NCBI RefSeq assembly: GCF_001677955.1 | Contig: NZ_LELA01000005.1 | Coordinates: forward strand, 1 to 59,287 | DNA length: 59,287 bases | Direction of reading: 5' to 3' | DNA from: Chryseobacterium sp. BGARF1 | GTDB taxonomy: Bacteria > Bacteroidota > Bacteroidia > Flavobacteriales > Weeksellaceae | Shown here: positions 326-55,848 of the stretch, piece by piece | Position numbering within the stretch: the stretch's first letter is position 1 | Layout: each line of letters starts with the position of its first letter | Position numbers and translations under genes: made by a program | Notes under the pieces: model-generated | What the model saw: the letters and a program-made list of their open reading frames with translations, nothing else | The model's database searches: none | Told to the model about the DNA's origin: nothing

Positions 326-2149
326 TTACTTTTTCTTGCCTTTCGTCTGCTCCTGCGCTTTCTGGGCGTCCTGAGCCTTTTCCATCATTTCTCTCATTCG
401 CTTTTGGAACTTTCCTTCCGCTTTAGGCTTTTCTTTGTTAGCCTGAATTTGAGCATGGATTTTCTTTTCATCCAGAATTACATACTTAATGACGAGGATA
501 ATCAAGATATTAATTGCATTCGATACAAAATAATACCAAGATAAACCAGATGCAGAAGTATTCAGGAAGAATAAGAATGTGATAGGGAAAATATACATAA
601 TCACTTTCATATTTGGCATCCCCTCTTGTTGTGGCTGCTGCATATTTCCTGAAGTCATTACGGTATAAATTAAAATCACAATTGTACATGCAATCGCAAA
701 AACACTTAAATGATCTCCCAAGAAAGGAATTTTAAATGGCAATTTAATCAAATCATCATATGCCGTAAGGTCTTTTGCAAACCAGAATCCTTGTCCTCTC
801 AAATCGATAAAGTTCGGGAAGAATCTAAATAATGCATAGAAAATAGGAATCTGTACCAACGCCGGAAGACATCCCGCCATTTGATTTACCCCTGCTTTTC
901 TGTAGATTTCCATGGTTGCTTGTTGCTTTTTCATAGGATCTGCATCCTTGAATTTTGCATTCGCTTCATCAATTTCAGGACGAATTACTTTCATCATCGC
1001 ACTCAATTTATGCTGCTTATACATAATTGGCGATAAAATAAGCTTCACAATAATTGTCATTAAGAAAATTACCCAACCTGCAGATATTCCCCATCCAGCT
1101 ATAACACTGTATAACCACATGAAGAAATAACGGTTCATTCCTCCAATGAAAGACCAACCTAATGGTAAAATTTCGTCAAAGTTTTTGTCGTAAGATTTTA
1201 ATAAAGGTAAATCCAATGGCATAAAATACCATGTGAAATCCTGATTAAATTCGCCTCCGTTCATGGCTACGAAACCTTCAAAATTCAGTTTCTTCAAATA
1301 TTCACCTTCTTCAATACCTTCTTGATTTCCTTTACTGTGTGTGAACCCTGTTTTAGATTCGATTACAGAAGAGAAAAACTGCTGTTTTACACCAATCCAG
1401 TTAAGGGTTTCTTTATCCTCAGTCATATCTGTTCTCCCGTCATAATCATAATCTTTATAATTATTAAATGCATAAACAAATTCTGAATGGGTCTGCTCCT
1501 GAGCTCTACCTTTTTCTAAATTTCTTACTTGGTAATCCCAAATAAAATCTGCTTTGTTATCAGAAGTTACATTGGATAAGCCTTGAGTTCTTACTTTAAA
1601 GTCTAATGTATATTGATCTTTAAGCTCTGCTTTAGGATTATTATTAATCGTATAAATAAACTGAATGGTTGCACCGTTGTAGTTTGCCGTTAACGTAACA
1701 GCATTACCATTAACAACCGGAGAGAAAACCAAATCTTTGGTATTAACCGTTTTTCCAGATTTATCTTTGAACTGAAAACCGTAGCTCGAGTTATTTTTAG
1801 TAATCAAATTAAGGGGAAGATCTGCCTTATCGGTTTTGTGATCATACGCTTTATACTTTAAAAGCTCAACTTTTGAAACCTGACCTCCCAAACTTGAAAA
1901 CTCAAGTTTCAACTCGTTGTTTGCCAAATTGGAAACCTGAATCGCATTCGGGGTTACATTGGGATTGATATCGGCTGCCGGAGTTGGTTTGGTGGCAATT
2001 TTAGCCTGTTCTGTTTTCTGTTGCTCAGCTTTCAGTTTTTCTTGTTCATCATTATTCCTTTGGAAATAAAACATGAATCCGAAAAGAACCAAACATAAAA
2101 CCGCAAAACTAATAATCTGCTTTTTATCGAGTCCGTTGTTCTGTTGCAT
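326..2149 (-). CDS. yidC: Membrane protein insertase YidC
   Basis: Inner-membrane insertase that places Sec-dependent and Sec-independent proteins in the membrane (Oxa1/Alb3 family). The 607 aa start with a single TM segment (about 11-28), followed by a large periplasmic domain and then the conserved C-terminal multi-TM insertase core. In TM2 the motif TIIVK places Lys where Escherichia coli has the functional Arg, as expected for a conserved positive charge in the groove. The C-terminus is Lys/Arg-rich (ends KGKKK), suited to ribosome contact. The length fits Gram-negative YidC. Monocistronic on the minus strand with its own terminator. Confidence 0.97.
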   Translation of the reverse strand: MQQNNGLDKKQIISFAVLCLVLFGFMFYFQRNNDEQEKLKAEQQKTEQAKIATKPTPAADINPNVTPNAIQVSNLANNELKLEFSSLGGQVSKVELLKYKAYDHKTDKADLPLNLITKNNSSYGFQFKDKSGKTVNTKDLVFSPVVNGNAVTLTANYNGATIQFIYTINNNPKAELKDQYTLDFKVRTQGLSNVTSDNKADFIWDYQVRNLEKGRAQEQTHSEFVYAFNNYKDYDYDGRTDMTEDKETLNWIGVKQQFFSSVIESKTGFTHSKGNQEGIEEGEYLKKLNFEGFVAMNGGEFNQDFTWYFMPLDLPLLKSYDKNFDEILPLGWSFIGGMNRYFFMWLYSVIAGWGISAGWVIFLMTIIVKLILSPIMYKQHKLSAMMKVIRPEIDEANAKFKDADPMKKQQATMEIYRKAGVNQMAGCLPALVQIPIFYALFRFFPNFIDLRGQGFWFAKDLTAYDDLIKLPFKIPFLGDHLSVFAIACTIVILIYTVMTSGNMQQPQQEGMPNMKVIMYIFPITFLFFLNTSASGLSWYYFVSNAINILIILVIKYVILDEKKIHAQIQANKEKPKAEGKFQKRMREMMEKAQDAQKAQEQTKGKKK

Positions 2150-34144: not shown

Positions 34145-34290
34145 AATTTTTAATGCAGTTAGTCTGAATTCTCATTAAAACCTCTTCTCTATTTCAAAAA
34201 ACTTCCCGAAATTTACAGTCTGTGCGTTAAACAAAAAAATTAATGAATTAAAGAACAATTAAAACAAACATACAGTAAAACTTAGCATAA

Positions 34291-34414
34291 GTTTTCTTCG
34301 GGGCAGGGTGCAATTCCCTACCGGCGGTTATAGTCCGCGACTCCTTTTTTACGAAAGGACTGATTTGGTGAAATTCCAAAACCGACAGTTACAGTCTGGA
34401 TGAGAGAAGAAAAT
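34291..34414 (+). promoter_or_regulatory. FMN riboswitch (RFN element)
   Basis: Shows the conserved aptamer blocks in order: TTCGGGGCAGGGTGCAATTC, CCTACCGGCGGT, a variable helix around 34335-34365, then GATTTGGTGAAATTCC, AAACCGACAGTTACAGTCTG and GATGAGAGAAGA. FMN binding lowers expression of riboflavin genes. It lies about 90 bp before ribB, the only gene it can control here. Confidence 0.95.
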
Positions 34415-34465
34415 GAAACAATCAATAAGACTATTTTGATAGACTTATTGTGTTGTATTTCATTT
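34411..34465 (+). promoter_or_regulatory. Probable expression-platform hairpin of the FMN riboswitch
   Basis: Right after the aptamer, CAATAAGACTAT and ATAGACTTATTG pair with one A-A mismatch around TTTG. The flanking GAAATGAAA and TTTCATTTC extend the stem. No strong U tract follows, so control may be by anti-terminator exchange or another route. Confidence 0.5.
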
Positions 34466-49059: not shown

Positions 49060-49094
49060 AAAAAGAGCTTTACTTTGTGAGTAGAGCTCTTTTT
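49060..49094. terminator. Bidirectional terminator between deoD and tatD
   Basis: Arms 49060-49074 and 49080-49094 pair over 15 bp with one wobble around TTGTG, with A and T runs at the ends. It overlaps the end of tatD. Confidence 0.85.
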
Positions 49095-49879
49095 TATATT
49101 CTGAAAAAATTTCTGGCGACTTCTGTAGTTTCATCGGCAACTTCAGAAATATTTATTTTTTTGAGATGTGCGATTGTCTGTGCTACATAAGGCAAAAATG
49201 ACGGTTCATTTCTGCGGTTTTGCATTCTCGGTATATTTTTCGGAAGCATAAAAGGCGCATCGGTTTCAATCATCATTCTATCGAGTGGAACATATTTGAT
49301 GACTTCTTCCAAATGTTTAAATCTGTTTGTATCACTTATGGCTCCGGTGAATCCTAAATAAAATCCTTTATCCAGATAAATTTTCGCCTCTTCTAAAGTT
49401 CCCGTAAAACAATGAACCACTGCTTTCGGAAGTTTTGATAAATATTCGTCTGTGATTTCGTTGAATCTTTTGAAAGCGGCTCTTTCATGAAGAAAAAGAG
49501 GTTTGTTAATTTCAATTGATAATTCTAGTTGAGCGCGATAACATTTTTCCTGAATGGGTCTTGGTGAAAAATCTCTGTCAAAATCTAATCCACATTCTCC
49601 AACCGAAACGACATGATCTTGCTTTAAAAGTTTTCTTAATTCATTAATACTTTCGTTGTTGAAAGATTTTGCATCGTGCGGATGAATTCCTGCTGTAGAA
49701 AATAAAATTTCGGGATAATCTTTTGCGATTTCCGCTGACTCTTTGCTTCCACGGACGCTCGTTCCAGTAAGAATCATTTGTTCAACTCCATTGTCGAGAG
49801 CTCGGTTGATGATTTCTTCTTGCTCATTGTAAAATTGTTTATTGGTCAGATTGATGCCAATATCGATAAATATGTTCAT
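49094..49879 (-). CDS. tatD: TatD family metal-dependent nuclease
   Basis: A 261-aa TIM-barrel amidohydrolase-type nuclease: metal ligands in the opening FIDIGINLTNKQF (HxH replaced by D-x-G-x-N), STAGIHPHDAK, SVGECGLDFDRD, FLHERAAF, VHCFTGTLEEA and METDAPFMLP. Known TatD proteins act as 3'-5' exonucleases on DNA or RNA. The opening motif differs from the usual DxHxH, so catalysis may be altered. Its ATG overlaps the stop of the 106-aa gene by 4 bp, placing it at the end of the tRNA-containing operon. Confidence 0.88.
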   Translation of the reverse strand: MNIFIDIGINLTNKQFYNEQEEIINRALDNGVEQMILTGTSVRGSKESAEIAKDYPEILFSTAGIHPHDAKSFNNESINELRKLLKQDHVVSVGECGLDFDRDFSPRPIQEKCYRAQLELSIEINKPLFLHERAAFKRFNEITDEYLSKLPKAVVHCFTGTLEEAKIYLDKGFYLGFTGAISDTNRFKHLEEVIKYVPLDRMMIETDAPFMLPKNIPRMQNRRNEPSFLPYVAQTIAHLKKINISEVADETTEVARNFFRI

Positions 49880-50196
49880 TTTTTGTTTGTTTTATTATTT
49901 ATTAAAAAATATCTCGTTACATGTGCTCTGTTGATTGAGCTTTTGAAGGCTTTTTCAGAATAGAAACTTCTGTAATCAGAATCAGTTGTTCCGTTGATTT
50001 CTCTTGTGATTTTAACCCAGATTAATTTGTGTCTTTTTCTCCTTTGCTTAAAAAATTTAATGGTTTCACTAAGCTGGTCTTCGATTTCAGATTTTTCAGT
50101 TCTCCTCCATTTCTTATTGCCATGCTTTTTTAAATAAGGTCCAATCTTACCATATTCGAAGCTTCTGAAAGTTCCTTTATTGTAAATGTTTTTCAT
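49876..50196 (-). CDS. Small basic hypothetical protein
   Basis: A 106-aa, strongly Lys/Arg-rich protein (LKKHGNKKWRRTEKSEIEDQ, FKQRRKRHKLIWVKITREING). The composition suits RNA binding, but this is inference. No family recognised. It lies 20 bp after the sixth tRNA-like sequence and overlaps tatD by 4 bp, so the three are probably one transcript. Confidence 0.6.
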   Translation of the reverse strand: MKNIYNKGTFRSFEYGKIGPYLKKHGNKKWRRTEKSEIEDQLSETIKFFKQRRKRHKLIWVKITREINGTTDSDYRSFYSEKAFKSSINRAHVTRYFLINNKTNKK

Positions 50197-50216
50197 ATTG
50201 ATTTAAATTATAAAAG

Positions 50217-50286
50217 GGAAACAGGCAAGATTTGAACTCGCAATTTCTCGAGGTTTGAGACATTTTTCCATTTAAATTACTGCTTC
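50217..50286 (-). tRNA. tRNA-like gene F (atypical, anticodon position ACC)
   Basis: Minus strand, 5' end at 50286. Acceptor GAAGCAG pairs with CTGTTTC (one wobble); TA at 8-9; D stem ATTT/AAAT with loop AAATGGAA; T arm GCGAG-TTCAAAT-CTTGC. The anticodon stem has only 4 bp (TCTC/GAGA) and the loop AAACCTC lacks U33. Total 70 nt. No encoded CCA. Isolated between two protein genes. It may be a degenerate tRNA or a specialised RNA. Confidence 0.6.
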
Positions 50287-50294
50287 GATATTTT

Positions 50295-52229
50295 TCAGGT
50301 CTCAACTTCTAAAAGACTGAAATATTCTTCCGCTGTAAGCGGTCTTGGAAAGCCTTGCGGAATAATTTCTTTTGTTAATTCACAAATTAATAGATCTCCT
50401 TGCCTTTTAAGACATTTGATGTATGGAATAATATTTTCATGAACTCTAAATGTTGAAGCAATCGCCATTAAAGCATTATCTTTATATTCTTCCTCTATCC
50501 ATAACCAATGTTCTTTTTCTGTAGAGGGGCACCAGCATCTTATGGCATAAGAATATGGTGACGTTCTTCTGGTAAACAATCTAAGTTTTTCATTTTTAAT
50601 CCCGTGAACTTCATAGCGGTTAATCTTTTTAATCAGAACTTTGTTTTTATTTTCGTTATATTTATAATAATTAACTTCAATTTCCGCTTCATTAATTTTC
50701 TCCGCTCCGAGTTTTTCCATTAAATTTTCTACTCCAAAATAACTGAAACAGAAAAGTCTAAAGTTTCTGTTTTTAGCATTAAAAAACTCTTCATATTTCA
50801 TAGGTTCGACTTCGTTCCACAGCTTTTCAATTTTATTTAAAATTTTCGTAAAAAACGGAGTTTCATACCTCTCCCATTCTCTTTCATATTCGCGAGTAAT
50901 AAAGTTCTCAAAATTATGATGTCGCAGTTTTAAAACAGATACCAATTTACTGATATGATAGCTCGGGAAATGAAAAACCTCATAGAAAGGTAGTTTGCAA
51001 ATAATAAATTTATTCTTTGTAACATAAAGATTATCATTGACTTTAAAATAAATATTTTTTGCTTTATGCTCAAATCCTTCATTTTTGTCGTACAAATAAT
51101 GTTCTATTTCTTTTAATGAAGGAAACGTATAATCTTTGTAATTTGATTTTATTCGTTCATCTCCCCATTTCCCAAGATATTCTAAAGTATCAAAATTAGT
51201 TTTATGAGAATATGACACCTTTCCGTTAATCCTTTTTAAATGTCTAAAATCATAGACAACTCCCATATTCATTAATAAATCTCCCACTTCTGTAAGATTC
51301 GGACTGTTTGTTTTAAAAACACAAAAACGATTTTTTACTTTCTCAAGCTTATCTAAGTAACAGGTTTCAAAACCATAATTATTAAAACTTCCGTTTATTT
51401 CTTTCAACTCAGAAAGCTTTGCCCCGCAATTATGCCTGATTATTATATTCCCAGATTTTTCCATGATGTGAAAAACTGCATACGAAGATATAATCAAGTC
51501 AATAGTTCCATTTATTTCCTTAAGTTGAGGAAGAGATAATTTTGTTTTGATAAGTTTCAAATTTCCCTTCATTTTTTTCAGCATCGGAAAGTCGTAGCTG
51601 AACTGAGGTTCTAATTCATCACGGCTTTCTATTTTCAGCAAACCATGAATGAACTCCAGATTAGGGAAGGATGTATTTTTACCATAAATATTAACTTCAC
51701 CATGAATTTCCTGATGTGGAATAATAATATTGTCTCCAAAGATATCTATATTGAAAATTCCTTTTTCTGAAAGACTTTCTACTTCATCCTGATGATTGAC
51801 GGGTATTACTTTTTTTATTTTCGTCAACGCTTTGTTAAATGCTGTAACTAAAGCATTTTTCACAGATATATTTCCACTGATTGTTACCAGATTCTTAAAG
51901 TTGAAATCTACTATACATTTAAAATTTCCATCCACTTTTTCAAGCTGATCCAATACTGCTGTACAATGCATCGTAAGGTTTCCTCCGACTTTTTTGAGTT
52001 TAGGAAACTCTCCATTTTCGGCATCAATGGAAAGGTTCCCTTTTATACTAATAAGATTTGGAAAAGCACAACCCCTTCCGCGTAAAAGTAAATTCCCTTC
52101 AATGACTTCGAAATCAAAAATCATATTATTAGCATAAATTTCTATTGATGTATTATCATCAAAAATATTCTCCGCCAAATCTTTTTCGGAGAATATTTTA
52201 TACTGTTTTATATAATTAATCGTATGCAT
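50295..52229 (-). CDS. Large repeat protein with LRR-like solenoid, tRNA-operon associated
   Basis: A 644-aa cytoplasmic protein. Residues 1-370 are repeats of about 20-24 residues in the style FPNL..I.GNL.I and FPKLKKVGGNLTM, a leucine-rich or beta-solenoid array. The C-terminal 250 residues are different, with a conserved-looking block RRTSPYSYAIRCWCPSTEKEHW and a Cys pair. No signal peptide. The start overlaps the previous gene by 14 bp, and the stop is 8 bp from tRNA F. Function unknown; the position suggests a role linked to the tRNAs. Confidence 0.75.
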   Translation of the reverse strand: MHTINYIKQYKIFSEKDLAENIFDDNTSIEIYANNMIFDFEVIEGNLLLRGRGCAFPNLISIKGNLSIDAENGEFPKLKKVGGNLTMHCTAVLDQLEKVDGNFKCIVDFNFKNLVTISGNISVKNALVTAFNKALTKIKKVIPVNHQDEVESLSEKGIFNIDIFGDNIIIPHQEIHGEVNIYGKNTSFPNLEFIHGLLKIESRDELEPQFSYDFPMLKKMKGNLKLIKTKLSLPQLKEINGTIDLIISSYAVFHIMEKSGNIIIRHNCGAKLSELKEINGSFNNYGFETCYLDKLEKVKNRFCVFKTNSPNLTEVGDLLMNMGVVYDFRHLKRINGKVSYSHKTNFDTLEYLGKWGDERIKSNYKDYTFPSLKEIEHYLYDKNEGFEHKAKNIYFKVNDNLYVTKNKFIICKLPFYEVFHFPSYHISKLVSVLKLRHHNFENFITREYEREWERYETPFFTKILNKIEKLWNEVEPMKYEEFFNAKNRNFRLFCFSYFGVENLMEKLGAEKINEAEIEVNYYKYNENKNKVLIKKINRYEVHGIKNEKLRLFTRRTSPYSYAIRCWCPSTEKEHWLWIEEEYKDNALMAIASTFRVHENIIPYIKCLKRQGDLLICELTKEIIPQGFPRPLTAEEYFSLLEVET

Positions 52230-52602
52230 TTTCTATCGTTTGTGTTATCGGATTATATTCCTGCTGAATATATTTTATGAAATATTCACTGTCTATTTGA
52301 AGCGTTTCATGTTCATTATGTGTTATAAAGCCGTTTTCTGAAATAAAGAATGTTTCTGTTGTTCCTTTTTTATCCAAAACTTCATAGTTCAAAGTCCTTA
52401 AAACATGTGGATTTCCTGTTTTCTCAAGAAAATATTCTTTTTTCTCCTTATCCTTTACAGTATTTTTTTCTTCTTTAAAAAAAATAATATCTTGCTGTAC
52501 TTTGCATTCTTTTTCCACAGAAATTCTTACATGCCCTTTTACAGATAAGAAAATCTGAGGCTTATTTATAATTTTGAAAAAATTTAATATTTTTTTTAAC
52601 AT
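52216..52602 (-). CDS. Hypothetical protein between the tRNA array and the repeat protein
   Basis: A 128-aa charged protein (MLKKILNFFKIINKPQIFLSV, then HVRISVEKECKVQQDIIFFKE). I start at 52602, since the longer reading from 52680 would run through tRNA A. It begins 22 bp after the 3' end of tRNA A and overlaps the next gene by 14 bp, which argues that the protein genes and tRNAs share a transcript. No family recognised. Confidence 0.65.
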   Translation of the reverse strand: MLKKILNFFKIINKPQIFLSVKGHVRISVEKECKVQQDIIFFKEEKNTVKDKEKKEYFLEKTGNPHVLRTLNYEVLDKKGTTETFFISENGFITHNEHETLQIDSEYFIKYIQQEYNPITQTIENAYD

Positions 52603-52623
52603 GACATAATATTTATTTAAAAC

Positions 52624-52696
52624 AAAAGAAGGTCGGGATTGAACCGACAACTTATTCCTGATAGAATACCATTTTTCCAAATTAAACTACTTCTTT
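52624..52696 (-). tRNA. tRNA-like gene A (atypical, anticodon position AUC)
   Basis: Minus strand, 5' end 52696. Acceptor AAAGAAG/CTTCTTT perfect; TA at 8-9; D stem GTTT/AAAT with GG in the loop; T arm GTCGG-TTCAATC-CCGAC perfect. The best anticodon hairpin is TATTC-TATCAG-GAATA, 5 bp with a 6-nt loop instead of 7. By position the anticodon reads ATC. No encoded CCA. Last of five tandem tRNAs. Confidence 0.68.
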
Positions 52697-52705
52697 TATT
52701 TTTTG

Positions 52706-52779
52706 GGAGTACAGCGGGAGTCGAACCCGCAACCTCTAATCAGTGAAGTCAGTGTTCTTCCAATTAGAACTATGTACTC
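52706..52779 (-). tRNA. tRNA-like gene B (anticodon position CAC, imperfect anticodon stem)
   Basis: Minus strand, 5' end 52779. Acceptor GAGTACA/TGTACTC perfect; TA; D stem GTTC/GAAC; T arm GCGGG-TTCGACT-CCCGC perfect; segment lengths canonical (74 nt). The anticodon arm CTGAC-TTCACTG-ATTAG has a C-A mismatch at 31-39 and a G-T pair. The anticodon would be CAC (Val), with U at 37 rather than a purine. Not a standard bacterial tRNA-Val. Confidence 0.72.
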
Positions 52780-52783
52780 CTTT

Positions 52784-52855
52784 CGAAACGCATGGGACTT
52801 GAACCCACAACCTCTGACTTGGAGGGTCAGCGCTCTTCCTTTGAGCTAACGTTTC
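52784..52855 (-). tRNA. tRNA-Gly-like gene C (TCC) with C at position 33
   Basis: Minus strand, 5' end 52855. Acceptor GAAACGT/GCGTTTC (one wobble), D stem GCTC/GAGC with GG in the loop, anticodon stem CTGAC/GTCAG perfect, variable AGGTT, T arm GTGGG-TTCAAGT-CCCAT. Loop CCTCCAA gives anticodon TCC (Gly), but U33, which is nearly universal, is replaced by C. No encoded CCA. Confidence 0.82.
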
Positions 52856-52861
52856 TGTTTG

Positions 52862-52931
52862 GGAGATAAGCAGGAATCGAACCTGCAACTCATCTTAGCA
52901 GGATGTATTTTTCCTTTTAAACTATTATCTC
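52862..52931 (-). tRNA. tRNA-like gene D (anticodon position GCT, short anticodon stem)
   Basis: Minus strand, 5' end 52931. Acceptor GAGATAA/TTATCTC perfect, with an optional extra G-C pair; D stem GTTT/AAAT; T arm GCAGG-TTCGATT-CCTGC perfect. The anticodon stem has 4 bp (CATC/GATG) with loop CTGCTAA, so the anticodon is GCT (Ser). Yet the variable region is only 4 nt, whereas bacterial tRNA-Ser needs a long variable arm. Total 70 nt. Confidence 0.74.
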
Positions 52932-52938
52932 CGTTTTG

Positions 52939-53012
52939 GAAAGCGTGTGGGACTCGAACCCACGACCTCCGCCGTGATATGGCGGCATTCTTCGCTGCTG
53001 AACTAACGCTTC
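52939..53012 (-). tRNA. tRNA-Asp-like gene E with A34 (anticodon ATC)
   Basis: Minus strand, 5' end 53012 (or 53013 with an extra G). Strong likeness to bacterial tRNA-Asp: TA-GTTC-loop-GAAT, anticodon stem CCGCC/GGCGG, variable AGGTC, T arm GTGGG-TTCGAGT-CCCAC. The loop is ATATCAC instead of CTGTCAC, giving anticodon AUC with A at the wobble position, and the D loop lacks the GG pair (AGCAGCGAA). It starts 9 bp after the SDR stop. No encoded CCA. Confidence 0.82.
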
Positions 53013-53021
53013 CTTTATATT

Positions 53022-54386
53022 TTACCAGTTATTAACTTTATAATTTTTCAATAAAACTCCACTAAAACAATTTCCGTTGATCCCTTCCACGATCGGATGC
53101 AAAATTCTCGCAGCTCCGTCCACAGAATCCAACGGTGGGATATATCCCTGTTCAAATTGTTTTTTTCTCAAACTTTCTTTTGCTCCTGTAGAGATCCACC
53201 CTACATCAACTGCGGTCATATAAATTTGGTCTTTTTCAAATTCTTTTGCAGAAGTCAGAGTCATCATATTTAAAGCAGCTTTCGTCATATTGGTGTGAGG
53301 ATGAAACATTGTTTTGTTATCATAACTGAAGATCCCTTCCGAAGAAGTCACATTAATGATAAATCTCTCTTTAAAAGATGAGTCTTTCAATAATTGTTTT
53401 AGTTCTTTAATTAGGAAATACGGAGCAATATGATTGATTAAGTTCACCTCAACCAATTCATACATCGAGACTTCTTCCAAGGTAGAATTCCAGCTTGTTT
53501 TATCTCTATTGTCAACGGGTTGTCCAAAACGTGTTAAAGCAACATTGGTTTCTTCGTTCTGAGCATATTCAAGCTTTCCAACTTCAGTTGAAATTTCTGT
53601 TTTATTCGGAATTAATTTCTTGTAATTTTTAAATTCTACCAACATTTCGTTTTCACGTTTAATGATCGGCAAATAGTATTCATCAGGATATTTGATGGTT
53701 TGAGCTGCATTATTGATCAAAATATCAAGCGTTTCAAAATTTGATCTATAAAAATCTATAAACTCCTGAATTGCTTTTAAATTTCTCAAATCCAGACCAT
53801 ACACCCAAAGTCTATCTTTCCAATCTTCATAATCAACTTCCTGTTGCAAAGTTTCTAACGCTAAAGCGGGAAAACGAGTTGTTAAAACCAAATTAGCTCC
53901 ATTTCTTAATAATTTCAATGCTGCCGCAAAACCTACTTTTACACGTCCTCCTGTCAAGATCGCATTTCGTCCTGATAGATCTGTTGATAAAAACCGTTTT
54001 TCATAATTTTCATCGGCACATTTCGGGCACAATCTTGTATAAAAAGAATGAGCGTATTGATAGCTTTGATTACAGCTGTAGCAGTTTTTGGGTATTTGTA
54101 ATTTTGTAAGTTGAGTATCATTTTTTTCGTCATCATAAAAATCAGAAACTCCAGCCAAAGCTTTTTTCATCAAAACAGATTCAGAATTGACTTCCAAATC
54201 ATGGTTTTTCATTTCAGAATAACTTTCCTGACGGTTTTGCTTTTTAGCATTCTTATGAATTTTTGTAATTAATCCGGAGAACGTTTTATTATCGGGATTC
54301 AGAAATGGCTCATCTTTCAAGGCATTCAAAACCTTAAGACATGACTCCCATTCGTTTTGTGAAAAATTTTCATTAGAAAAATCCAT
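53022..54386 (-). CDS. Zinc-ribbon SDR-fold protein, tRNA-operon associated
   Basis: A 454-aa protein. After a helical N-terminus comes a Cys4 ribbon (CYSCNQ...LCPKCAD, about residues 103-124), then a short-chain dehydrogenase domain: ILTGGRVKVGFAAALKLL (nucleotide loop), DILINNAAQ and INVTSSEG. The usual YxxxK reads TNMTK, so the catalytic Tyr appears absent although Lys remains. An NAD(P)-binding role without classic reductase chemistry is possible. It directly precedes the tRNA array. Confidence 0.78.
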   Translation of the reverse strand: MDFSNENFSQNEWESCLKVLNALKDEPFLNPDNKTFSGLITKIHKNAKKQNRQESYSEMKNHDLEVNSESVLMKKALAGVSDFYDDEKNDTQLTKLQIPKNCYSCNQSYQYAHSFYTRLCPKCADENYEKRFLSTDLSGRNAILTGGRVKVGFAAALKLLRNGANLVLTTRFPALALETLQQEVDYEDWKDRLWVYGLDLRNLKAIQEFIDFYRSNFETLDILINNAAQTIKYPDEYYLPIIKRENEMLVEFKNYKKLIPNKTEISTEVGKLEYAQNEETNVALTRFGQPVDNRDKTSWNSTLEEVSMYELVEVNLINHIAPYFLIKELKQLLKDSSFKERFIINVTSSEGIFSYDNKTMFHPHTNMTKAALNMMTLTSAKEFEKDQIYMTAVDVGWISTGAKESLRKKQFEQGYIPPLDSVDGAARILHPIVEGINGNCFSGVLLKNYKVNNW

Positions 54387-54475
54387 TGCTTTTATTTTAT
54401 GTTGACAAAATTAGCTGCGTAATACGCAATCTTTTTACGCAGTATTTTTTATTTAAAATTAATTTTAATTTTTCG

Positions 54476-55126
54476 TTACTCATTTATAAAACCTTCCAAA
54501 AAACCAATCAGATTTTTTCCGCCGTGGCTCCAACGAATTCCGTGGCCGTCTTTTTCTCTGACCTCAAAAACCAATTCGTGTTTGTAATGAAAGAACACAT
54601 TCCACCACGTTTTATTTTCTAAAACAAAATTGATTTTCTGCATGACGATTTGCTGTTTTTGATGATTATTTCCTTTTATTTCACCCCAAAACTGGTCTTC
54701 CATTCTTCCGACGTGCTTTTCCCAAGCTCTCTGTGCAATGCTAATTTCTTTATTGAAAGATCTTTCACAAGCTTCTATCAATAAACTTTTCAAAGGAGGA
54801 ATTGCATTTTCGTCTCGCAAACTTGCTGAAGTCAGTCTTTGTCCCAAAATATTCAACCAATGTTCAAAAGAAATTTCTTCCAGTTGTTTTACTTTAACTG
54901 TATCTGAATTTTCAGAATGTAAAATATGAGTAAATAAATTGAAACTGTCATCACGATTAATTTTAATTTCATCGTTAAAAAATGGAAAATCGAGATCTAA
55001 AGTTTGGTCTTTAAATTTTTGAATATTCAGACTCAAATTTTTAAGATGTTCTTCAGCTAAAATTCCCTGATATTTTTCTTTCCAGTCTTTTGAAAATAAT
55101 GGAATATAGTCTTCAAATAAGTTCAT
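54476..55126 (-). CDS. Hypothetical protein of the tRNA operon
   Basis: A 216-aa cytoplasmic protein (MNLFEDYIPLFSKDWKEKYQG), mostly helical in the first part, with conserved-looking WWNVFFHYKHELVFEVREKDGHGIRWSHGG near the end. No family recognised. Its ATG lies 2 bp after the DUF434 stop, so the two are translationally close. 89 bp separate it from the SDR gene. Confidence 0.65.
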   Translation of the reverse strand: MNLFEDYIPLFSKDWKEKYQGILAEEHLKNLSLNIQKFKDQTLDLDFPFFNDEIKINRDDSFNLFTHILHSENSDTVKVKQLEEISFEHWLNILGQRLTSASLRDENAIPPLKSLLIEACERSFNKEISIAQRAWEKHVGRMEDQFWGEIKGNNHQKQQIVMQKINFVLENKTWWNVFFHYKHELVFEVREKDGHGIRWSHGGKNLIGFLEGFINE

Positions 55127-55128
55127 GA

Positions 55129-55848
55129 TTAAAACATTTTCACAAGATTAACATACAATTTTTCTTCGTTAATCAAATACTTAACAAGATTAAACCAATT
55201 TTTAGAATAATCTAAAATCCAGGCATCAGAAGAAACTATTATTTCTGCATTTTCAACTAAAAATCTATCCGGATTAAATTCCAGTTGAACATTCCAATCA
55301 AAATTATTTTCTTGAGCAAGATCTAAAATTTTTTCTTTGATCCTTCCACTGTTTGAAACAGGTTTATCAAAAATCCAGATTAGCTTTTGTACCTGAGATT
55401 TCTGAAAAAATGTAGCAACCAATTCAATCGCTTTTTGTGTTTGATTGACTCTTTTGTAAGTTCCATGAACACCGGAAAGATCACGAAAGCAACCGTCGAT
55501 TCCTTCAAAAATATAAGCTTCAGAAAGTAAACTTTCCAATAAAATTAATACATTAAAGCCATCCAGGTAAATCGTTTTATCTTTTAAATCTGAAATTAGA
55601 AGTTCTATATTTTTTCTGCTCTGAATCTGATTTTCAGAAGCCGAAGCTCCACGCAAAGCCTGAATTTGTCGGGCTTTCAGTCGGTAATGATTACCCACTA
55701 ATTCGGAGGACGCTTTTTCTGCATAATTCCGACTCAGCAAATATTTCATATCCTGAATGGATAATTTCAGTTTATCAATCTGCTTTTGTGAAGAAAATAA
55801 GGTGTCGTCGCCTGTGTTTTTTCCACGATTTCTATTGTTCATATTCAA
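55129..55848 (-). CDS. DUF434/DUF5616 protein (predicted PIN/NYN-like)
   Basis: A 239-aa protein. The N-terminal DUF434 part (DMKYLLSRNYAEKASSELVG, LKARQIQALRGASAS) is followed by the DUF5616 part: TIYLDGFNVLILLESLLS, DGCFRDLSGVHGTYKRVNQTQKAIE, LIWIFDKPVSNSGRIKEKI and IVSSDAWILDY. The spaced acidic residues and the LDGFNVLI strand recall PIN/NYN nucleases, but activity is not proven. First gene of the minus-strand block ending at tatD, divergent from xylB. Confidence 0.78.
   Translation of the reverse strand: MNMNNRNRGKNTGDDTLFSSQKQIDKLKLSIQDMKYLLSRNYAEKASSELVGNHYRLKARQIQALRGASASENQIQSRKNIELLISDLKDKTIYLDGFNVLILLESLLSEAYIFEGIDGCFRDLSGVHGTYKRVNQTQKAIELVATFFQKSQVQKLIWIFDKPVSNSGRIKEKILDLAQENNFDWNVQLEFNPDRFLVENAEIIVSSDAWILDYSKNWFNLVKYLINEEKLYVNLVKMF

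Follow-up and report, generated by a model that had tools for sequence, protein, structure and literature searches.

A cassette of tRNA-like RNA and SDR-like protein genes in Chryseobacterium: a possible decoy module of an RNA-repair regulon

Genes and features of the locus

The window analysed here, 59,287 nucleotides in length, is one whole contig (C5, NZ_LELA01000005.1) of the 4.7 Mb genome of Chryseobacterium sp. BGARF1 (G000). It harbours, at about 50.2–54.4 kb, a cassette of ~4.2 kb in which protein genes alternate with genes for tRNA-like RNAs (tRLs, a label applied here to the six tRNA-like genes and to their relatives). All the features of the cassette and its surroundings described below lie on the minus strand. 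The first gene (53022..54386) encodes a short-chain dehydrogenase (SDR)-like protein of 454 amino acids (aa), with a Cys4 zinc-ribbon-like segment (C102, C105, C120, C123) and without the catalytic tyrosine of the YxxxK motif. It is followed by five tRLs: A (52939..53012), whose Asp-like anticodon arm CCGCC(ATATCAC)GGCGG has a 5-bp stem, a 7-nt loop and U33; B (52862..52931), with the loop CTGCTAA (Ser GCU-like) on a 4-bp anticodon stem; C (52784..52855), with the loop CCTCCAA (Gly UCC-like) and a normal geometry but C33; D (52706..52779), Val-like, with a 9-nt anticodon loop on a 4-bp stem; and E (52624..52696), with an anticodon loop of 6 nt. The gene of a 128-aa protein with no family over its cut-off (52216..52602) comes next, immediately 5' of the gene of a 644-aa protein (50295..52229), a predicted beta-solenoid (receptor-L-domain-like) with a C-terminal alpha/beta part. 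The cassette closes with tRL F (50217..50286), which carries the loop AAACCTC, without U33, on a 4-bp anticodon stem. No recombinase gene was seen among the cassette genes (gene list and Pfam).

Upstream of the SDR gene lies an operator-like motif common to RNA-repair genes (TGCGTAAAAAGATTGCGTA, consensus TRCGYAAAAANAYTRCGYA; 54423..54441). It is followed by TAATTTTG (54406..54413), beginning 27 nt upstream of the SDR start, a TAnnTTTG element which we take to be a -7-type box of Bacteroidota.

All six tRNA-like genes are genuine. In a scan of this region only, family RF00005 of Rfam matches each of them, with 58.6, 53.0, 50.8, 43.0, 40.8 and 40.0 bits (gathering score 29). Five of the six were recovered over the whole window, tRL F being missed, and ARAGORN also detected five of six. 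Rfam and ARAGORN thus bear out the positions that an earlier note on this DNA had given for the tRNA-like genes; its protein gene positions hold as well. The tight spacing it described is also present, with overlaps of 14 bp (128-aa and 644-aa genes) and 4 bp (106-aa and TatD genes) and gaps of 2, 8–9 and about 20 bp.

The neighbours outside the cassette are, upstream of the motif, the genes of a 216-aa protein whose family is unassigned (54476..55126) and of a DUF434 + DUF5616 protein (55129..55848). On the other side come the genes of a 106-aa basic protein (49876..50196), which, in the nearest relatives whose site is empty, is the first gene after the motif, and of a TatD-family nuclease (49094..49879).

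Core genes and an inserted cassette

The earlier note proposed that the whole 6.7 kb form a single operon starting at DUF434, a view that does not stand. Judged by comparison with relatives, the block is made of core genes and an inserted accessory cassette rather than of one operon, because the promoter-like element precedes the SDR gene, and because the core genes keep their order without the cassette in near relatives. This conserved element is contained in the 89 bp between the 216-aa and SDR genes. The order DUF434–216 aa–106 aa–TatD, without the SDR gene, the 644-aa gene or any tRL, is found in L153, L154, L155 and L172, the flank letters of the empty site having been inspected for L153 and L154. 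Relative to sister genomes, the cassette is thus, on this comparison, an insertion. Sixteen of 20 SDR-less genomes examined are tRL-free at this site, and L156, L157, L159 and L160 carry the 128-aa/644-aa pair with tRLs. Conservation of gene order in relatives, which the earlier note had made a test of its proposal, was looked for and found.

Among 118 Chryseobacterium genomes, the 216-aa gene is present in 98 and TatD (E <= 1e-80) in 93, and intact close copies of the SDR gene (at least 81% identity) occur in 37; these wider and narrower distributions therefore delimit the window cassette to about 50.2–54.4 kb. Besides the intact copies, three broken ones and one remnant (G013, G014, G062 and G099; L098–L102) occupy the same site, and the cassette is therefore in the course of being lost in places. 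The suggestion that the DUF434 (PIN/NYN-like) and TatD proteins process the tRNA-like RNAs finds no support, because both occur in genomes devoid of these RNAs.

Many loci have one more unit, a SIR2-family gene (275 aa) that separates the cassette genes from TatD (L001, L002, L003, L005, L006, L008, L009, L013, L014, L105, L106, L115, L120, L121, L160 and L161). It adjoins tRLs in all of them except L161, which has no tRL.

A promoter motif common to RNA-repair genes

Every one of the 39 Chryseobacterium SDR loci scanned, including those with broken copies, has the 19-bp motif directly upstream of the SDR gene. The TAnnTTTG box is present in 23/24 loci, 26–28 nt ahead of the SDR start. With one mismatch allowed, 77 sites were found in 14 chosen genomes bearing a TROVE (Ro60) gene, vs 4 for the reversed pattern. 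In these genomes, a site precedes the TROVE match by 41–63 nt in 14/14 cases, and another one occupies the slot between the 216-aa gene and the SDR or 106-aa gene in 13/14. The pattern was widened after the TROVE site of the present genome had been seen, and 13 genomes are therefore independent. In this genome, the motif is also found before an RtcB gene and an RlaP gene (both assigned by Pfam), with a WYL-domain regulator near rtcB. Sites likewise precede genes resembling RtcB and RlaP (by likeness only) in G114 and G077, a Thg1 gene lying nearby in the latter.

No TROVE protein was found by Pfam among those of the window. TROVE (E <= 1e-60) is present in 82 of the 118 Chryseobacterium genomes and sits elsewhere, at a median of 30.5 kb from the 216-aa gene when both are on one contig. 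The two genes are at most 60 kb apart in 62 of the 63 genomes with both on one contig; the exception, G105, involves a 56%-identical copy located elsewhere. These distances cover 68 of the 82 TROVE genomes, five of which have the genes on different contigs; of the 14 left out, 12 have them on different contigs and two have no 216-aa gene. In the present genome, the TROVE island contains two RNA ligases (Rnl2 and RLIG1-like), exonucleases, a phosphoesterase, cREC, R2K and ATP-grasp proteins, together with an array of odd tRNAs. Another motif site is found ~0.9 kb past TROVE, upstream of a YrlA-like RNA (34.7 bits for a threshold of 69) located ~1.5 kb past TROVE (L193:733–845, with the stretch 600–1480, minus strand).

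An SDR paralogue (51–55%) is found within RNA-repair islands; at eight loci, with one copy broken, it lies between a tRNA array of this kind and a MoxR–vWA–beta-propeller system. In Flavobacterium L083, the SDR gene and tRLs are themselves part of an RNA-repair island, with exonuclease, phosphoesterase and ligase genes on one side and TROVE on the other. In L173, a stretch of 4.4 kb, they stand beside an exonuclease gene and a tRNA array.

The TROVE island of this genome corresponds to L193 (G000:C43:137000–156900), with its tRNA array at C43:149544–151705; in other genomes, such arrays lie next to the SDR paralogue and count as many as some 15 near-canonical tRNAs. A second regulon locus, L194 (G000:C18, 3070–15509), also seen as L195 and L198, contains a WYL regulator, RtcB, two RlaP-family genes and an R2K ATP-grasp gene. 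Motif sites precede RtcB and RlaP, and Thg1 is present as well in L198.

Distribution and linkage of the SDR and tRL genes

Of the 16 named SDR-bearing loci, 14 are from Chryseobacterium and two are Crocinitomix assemblies. Close SDR relatives were found in 10/199 Flavobacterium genomes, in 3/199 genomes of the family to which Flavobacterium belongs (in most cases a single genome for each genus), and in 6/395 genomes of a phylum sample, where 18 more have an SDR cousin alone.

The association with tRLs is tight. A covariance model built from 61 chosen tRLs, combined with a count by hand, puts the start of a tRL at most 60 nt past the SDR stop in 38/43 loci; with the limit raised to 100 nt, the count is 42/43 (the set comprises the window, L001–L016, L083–L086, L092, L099 and L103–L122). 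The sole exception beyond 100 nt is L004, where a 258-aa gene with no Pfam family (L004:8389–9165) separates the SDR gene from the tRLs. A tRL also comes right after the SDR gene in 11/11 further Flavobacteriaceae loci (L173–L183), which brings the total within 60 nt to 49/54. At the 18 loci of SDR cousins (33–41% identity; 22 sources, four being longer stretches of the same loci), the model gave no match.

A stricter Python scanner retrieved a tRL at most 60 nt downstream of the gene for SDR (21/44), the 644-aa protein (17/30) and SIR2 (7/19), with gaps of 4–15 nt in 44 of 45 cases and of 51 nt in the other. The same scanner found none after the 128-aa (0/30), 216-aa (0/62), DUF434 (0/60), 106-aa (0/23), TatD (0/61) or PNP (0/60) genes. 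Counted per genome, a D-arm signature occurs on average 4.14 times in the 37 SDR-positive genomes (control 1.38) and 1.21 times in 73 SDR-free ones (control 1.07), kinship being uncorrected.

Three genomes (G096:C2:17810, G040:C3:31995 and G109:C11:350176) display a GGAA D-arm signature (TAGCTTAAAAGGAAAAGC) some 1 kb ahead of TROVE, perhaps as part of another tRL.

Structure and evolution of the tRNA-like RNAs

The tRLs share marks which set them apart from the canonical tRNAs of this genome: a GGAA-type D-loop (139/143 distinct tRLs vs 0/31), A2–U71 (138/143 vs 3/31) and C73 (89/143 vs 1/31). An extra pair between positions -1 and 73 is usual, with G-1 opposite C73 in 82/149 tRLs and A-1 opposite U73 in 26/149. 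Such a G-1:C73 pair is a mark of tRNA-His. A possible link between this feature and the Thg1-family gene near the second regulon locus may be mentioned, in one genome.

The earlier note held the anticodon arms of all six window tRLs to be abnormal. This is right for B, C, D, E and F, each of which lacks at least one of the attributes of a decoding tRNA (7-nt loop, 5-bp stem, U33), and wrong for A, which has all three. The note also placed the oddity in the anticodon arm; the D-loop, the A2–U71 pair and C73 with G at -1 are peculiar as well. More generally, a 5-bp stem with a 7-nt loop is found in 43/143 tRLs, a proportion to be read with the 16/31 that the same folding gives for canonical tRNAs. 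By this folding, U33 is present in 60/87 seven-nt tRL loops vs 22/22 canonical tRNAs. In 56/149 tRLs, the arm segment is shortened to 20 nt and its stem to 4 bp; only 29 of these 56 have U at 33.

The stems of the acceptor, D, T and anticodon arms are kept by compensatory changes. RNAalifold analysis of the 61 chosen tRLs revealed such changes in 15 of 16 pairs of a consensus that leaves out the anticodon stem, and covariation supports the D stem, T stem and acceptor. The anticodon stem was assessed by shuffling the 3' arms, in a test covering 102/149 tRLs (5-bp and 4-bp segment lengths). In the 5-bp class, 93.3% of the cells are paired vs 67.7 ± 3.2% after shuffling (24 distinct arm pairs), and in the 4-bp class 86.0% vs 54.7 ± 3.8% (25 distinct arm pairs); the highest values reached in 2000 shuffles were 80.0 and 67.0%, respectively.

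On this kept body, the anticodon loop is the part of the tRLs that changes fastest in Chryseobacterium. Among 90 tRL pairs with a body identity of at least 95%, a filter from which the anticodon loop, anticodon stem, D-loop and variable loop were kept out, differences affect 30.8% of the sites in the anticodon loop and 23.1% in its stem, compared with 11.4% for the D-loop, 9.5% for the variable loop and 1.6% for the acceptor. The anticodon loop of the near-canonical array tRNAs differs at 2.0% of sites (29 pairs). The first tRL of Flavobacterium loci gives a like picture by eye, a single pair having passed the filter for a figure.

The loops nevertheless retain some likeness to canonical ones: 5/61 distinct 7-nt loops are identical to a canonical one (against a null of 1.14, with as many in 10/2000 column shuffles) and 20/61 are at most one change away (against a null of 10.9, with as many in 1/2000 shuffles), which fits either mimicry or common descent. 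Arms that resemble those of real tRNAs and diversify on a conserved body are what is expected of decoys; common descent and relaxed loop constraint could yield the same picture.

In the tRLs with a 23-nt arm segment, all loci taken together, position 36 is C in 45/46 and positions 34 and 35 vary, which corresponds to NNC anticodons (GNN codons).

Cassette proteins

The predicted structure of the SDR protein (mean pLDDT 80.6) indicates a Rossmann nucleotide-binding fold of the SDR type, with Foldseek E-values down to 1.5e-12. The catalytic YxxxK motif of active classical SDR enzymes is missing: no tyrosine occupies this position in any of 37 aligned relatives, which have an invariant HPHTNM-x-K instead. 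The four cysteines of the zinc-ribbon-like segment are invariant. The gene itself is, from its substitution pattern, under purifying selection (dN 0.05–0.12 and dS 0.75–2.5 in five pairs, dS being partly near saturation). For the 644-aa protein, modelling predicts a beta-solenoid followed by a C-terminal part; the receptor L domain is matched by two of three relatives scanned, not by the window protein itself.

Proposed function and alternative explanations

Cutting tRNAs is a widely used weapon, both for bacterial toxins and in anti-phage defence, and is known to be countered by repair (RtcB, Rnl) or by spare tRNAs. The co-location with repair genes, the common motif, the kept stems and the diversifying hairpins would fit a set of decoys made under tRNA attack. 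We thus tentatively favour, at somewhat less than an even chance, the reading of the cassette as an SDR–tRL module that belongs to an RNA-repair regulon, its tRLs serving as sacrificial decoys for enzymes acting on tRNA anticodon loops. The dedicated RNA module put forward in the earlier note, whether as decoys for anticodon nucleases or as RNA-repair substrates, agrees with the hypervariable, covarying arms and with the motif common to Ro60/TROVE, RtcB and RlaP.

In the proposed scheme, tRNA damage would turn on the regulon through the motif, and a single transcript would be produced, from which the tRLs would be excised by the tRNA-processing enzymes of the cell. The SDR protein, with its Rossmann fold kept and its catalytic tyrosine lost, might bind them as an RNA-binding platform. 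The tRLs, mostly unfit for decoding, would then offer many anticodon-arm variants to be cut or bound in place of real tRNAs, and the diversity of their loops would track the changing targets of the attackers. The production of the tRLs, their binding by the SDR protein and their cleavage are all inferred. If true, such a decoy set would be a third answer to tRNA cleavage, absorption, beside repair and spare tRNAs; the loop repertoire would become a readable record of the nucleases met by a lineage, and a family that databases label as oxidoreductase would have an RNA role. The cassette itself is of small size, occurs in cultured genera and lends itself to direct testing. A broader claim, on the unlikely side in our judgement, is that of a new class of bacterial RNA modules, in which SDR proteins, having lost their catalytic function, would bind arrays of tRNAs unable to decode, with anticodon hairpins diversifying like antigen-facing surfaces. 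They would form an interchangeable decoy shield within the RNA-repair response, each gene unit travelling with its own tRL.

Several observations weigh against the decoy reading. The motif also follows the 216-aa gene in 11/20 SDR-less genomes and thus belongs to the chromosomal slot, the cassette being therefore co-regulated by its position. The motif patterns gave no site before the SDR genes of other genera. The association with TROVE is modest (32/37 SDR-positive genomes vs 50/81 without an intact SDR gene; Fisher p 0.009, kinship uncorrected), five of the 37 SDR-positive genomes having no TROVE match at E <= 1e-60. In the 5-bp class, C36 is found in 45/46 tRLs and U33 in 37/46, which hints at some role in decoding or aminoacylation. 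Rapid change of the loop could stem from a relaxed constraint or from the swapping of anticodon arms, not from an arms race. The SDR protein has a pI of 5.8 and is not basic, and the 128-aa, 644-aa and SIR2 proteins are left unaccounted for.

The chief doubt lies between decoys and a ribonucleoprotein scaffold or sensor, the constancy of C36 leaving some room for decoding. As scaffold or sensor, the tRLs would be to the SDR protein (or to Ro60) what Y RNAs are to Ro60, partner RNAs, and by being cleaved or occupied they would report tRNA damage, not absorb it. The tRL gene that immediately follows the SDR gene at almost every locus and the motif found both before TROVE and upstream of the YrlA-like RNA speak for this possibility, together with the control of the Salmonella RNA-repair operon by damaged tRNAs, described in PMC7790460. 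However, scaffold RNAs would not need hypervariable anticodon loops, four genomes (G017, G033, G038 and G071) have the SDR gene and tRLs with no TROVE match, and the best YrlA match overlapping the window tRLs scores 26.9 bits for a gathering score of 69. We regard the scaffold or sensor reading as unlikely. The tRLs could also be nuclease-resistant spare tRNAs used for decoding during tRNA damage, like the phage tRNAs with altered anticodon loops that PMC10264068 proposes to be insensitive to anticodon nucleases. U33 and C36 are indeed mostly kept in the 5-bp-stem tRLs, and several loops are identical to canonical ones (e.g., Asp, Val, Gly). The many shortened segments with a 4-bp stem, the incomplete retention of U33 and the frequent C73 argue against this, and near-canonical tRNAs with highly conserved loops occupy a separate array; this explanation is held to be quite improbable.

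An equally low probability is given to the tRLs being punctuation marks that split a long transcript into mRNAs, or exchange sites for a recombination shuffling gene units. The alternation of genes and tRLs would be explained in this way, as would the presence of tRLs after the SDR, 644-aa and SIR2 genes and not after the neighbour genes; human mitochondrial mRNAs are similarly flanked by tRNAs, which are excised by an RNase P comprising SDR5C1, according to PMC8437803 and PMC10602865. Runs of up to about nine consecutive tRLs and the covarying, hypervariable anticodon arms would remain unaccounted for, and the cassette genes seen include no recombinase. Some tRLs are poor as tRNAs, and four genomes have a broken or remnant SDR gene, as would be seen in a graveyard of pseudo-tRNAs beside unrelated genes, the alternative named in the earlier note. 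This last explanation is scarcely credible: it is contradicted by the kept gene order and, above all, by the compensatory base changes, as well as by the purifying selection on the SDR gene and the enrichment of the D-arm signature in SDR-positive genomes.

Relation to known systems

The RNA-repair systems catalogued by Burroughs and Aravind (2016) reportedly include neighbourhoods of TROVE, RNA ligases, RlaP and R2K resembling those encountered in this analysis. No earlier description of the SDR–tRL cassette was found in a literature search whose scope left out that catalogue. PMC7824862 describes an RNA-repair platform formed by TROVE and a tRNA-like partner, and also presents TROVE, RNA ligase, RlaP and R2K neighbourhoods similar to the present ones.

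One of the closest known systems is the Rsr(Ro60)–YrlA–RtcBA operon, where RNA-repair genes are accompanied by small RNA genes with tRNA-like parts; here, TROVE, RtcB and RlaP genes stand under one motif, with a YrlA-like RNA downstream of one site. The cassette differs by having an SDR protein instead of Ro60 and several full cloverleaf RNAs instead of a Y RNA. The tRNA arrays of phages and plasmids, proposed to act against anticodon nucleases (PMC10264068 and PMC12803027), also consist of clustered tRNAs with altered anticodon loops. In contrast, most tRLs have arms unfit for decoding and special acceptor and D-loop marks, and they alternate with protein genes downstream of a chromosomal repair motif.

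In human mitochondrial RNase P (TRMT10C–SDR5C1–PRORP), an SDR-fold protein is likewise tied to gene-separating tRNAs; according to PMC10602865, these subunits matter and their enzymatic activities do not. The SDR protein of the cassette belongs to a distinct 454-aa family, with a zinc-ribbon segment and without the catalytic tyrosine. No TRMT10 or PRORP/NYN domain was detected by Pfam in the cassette genes, DUF434/DUF5616 being upstream of the motif and present in tRL-free genomes too. With classical short-chain dehydrogenases, the SDR protein has in common the Rossmann fold, an NNA motif and a TGxxxxxG-like loop; it departs from them by the loss of the YxxxK tyrosine throughout the aligned family.

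Elsewhere in the window, an FMN riboswitch was recognized with 122 bits at 34290–34415 on the plus strand.

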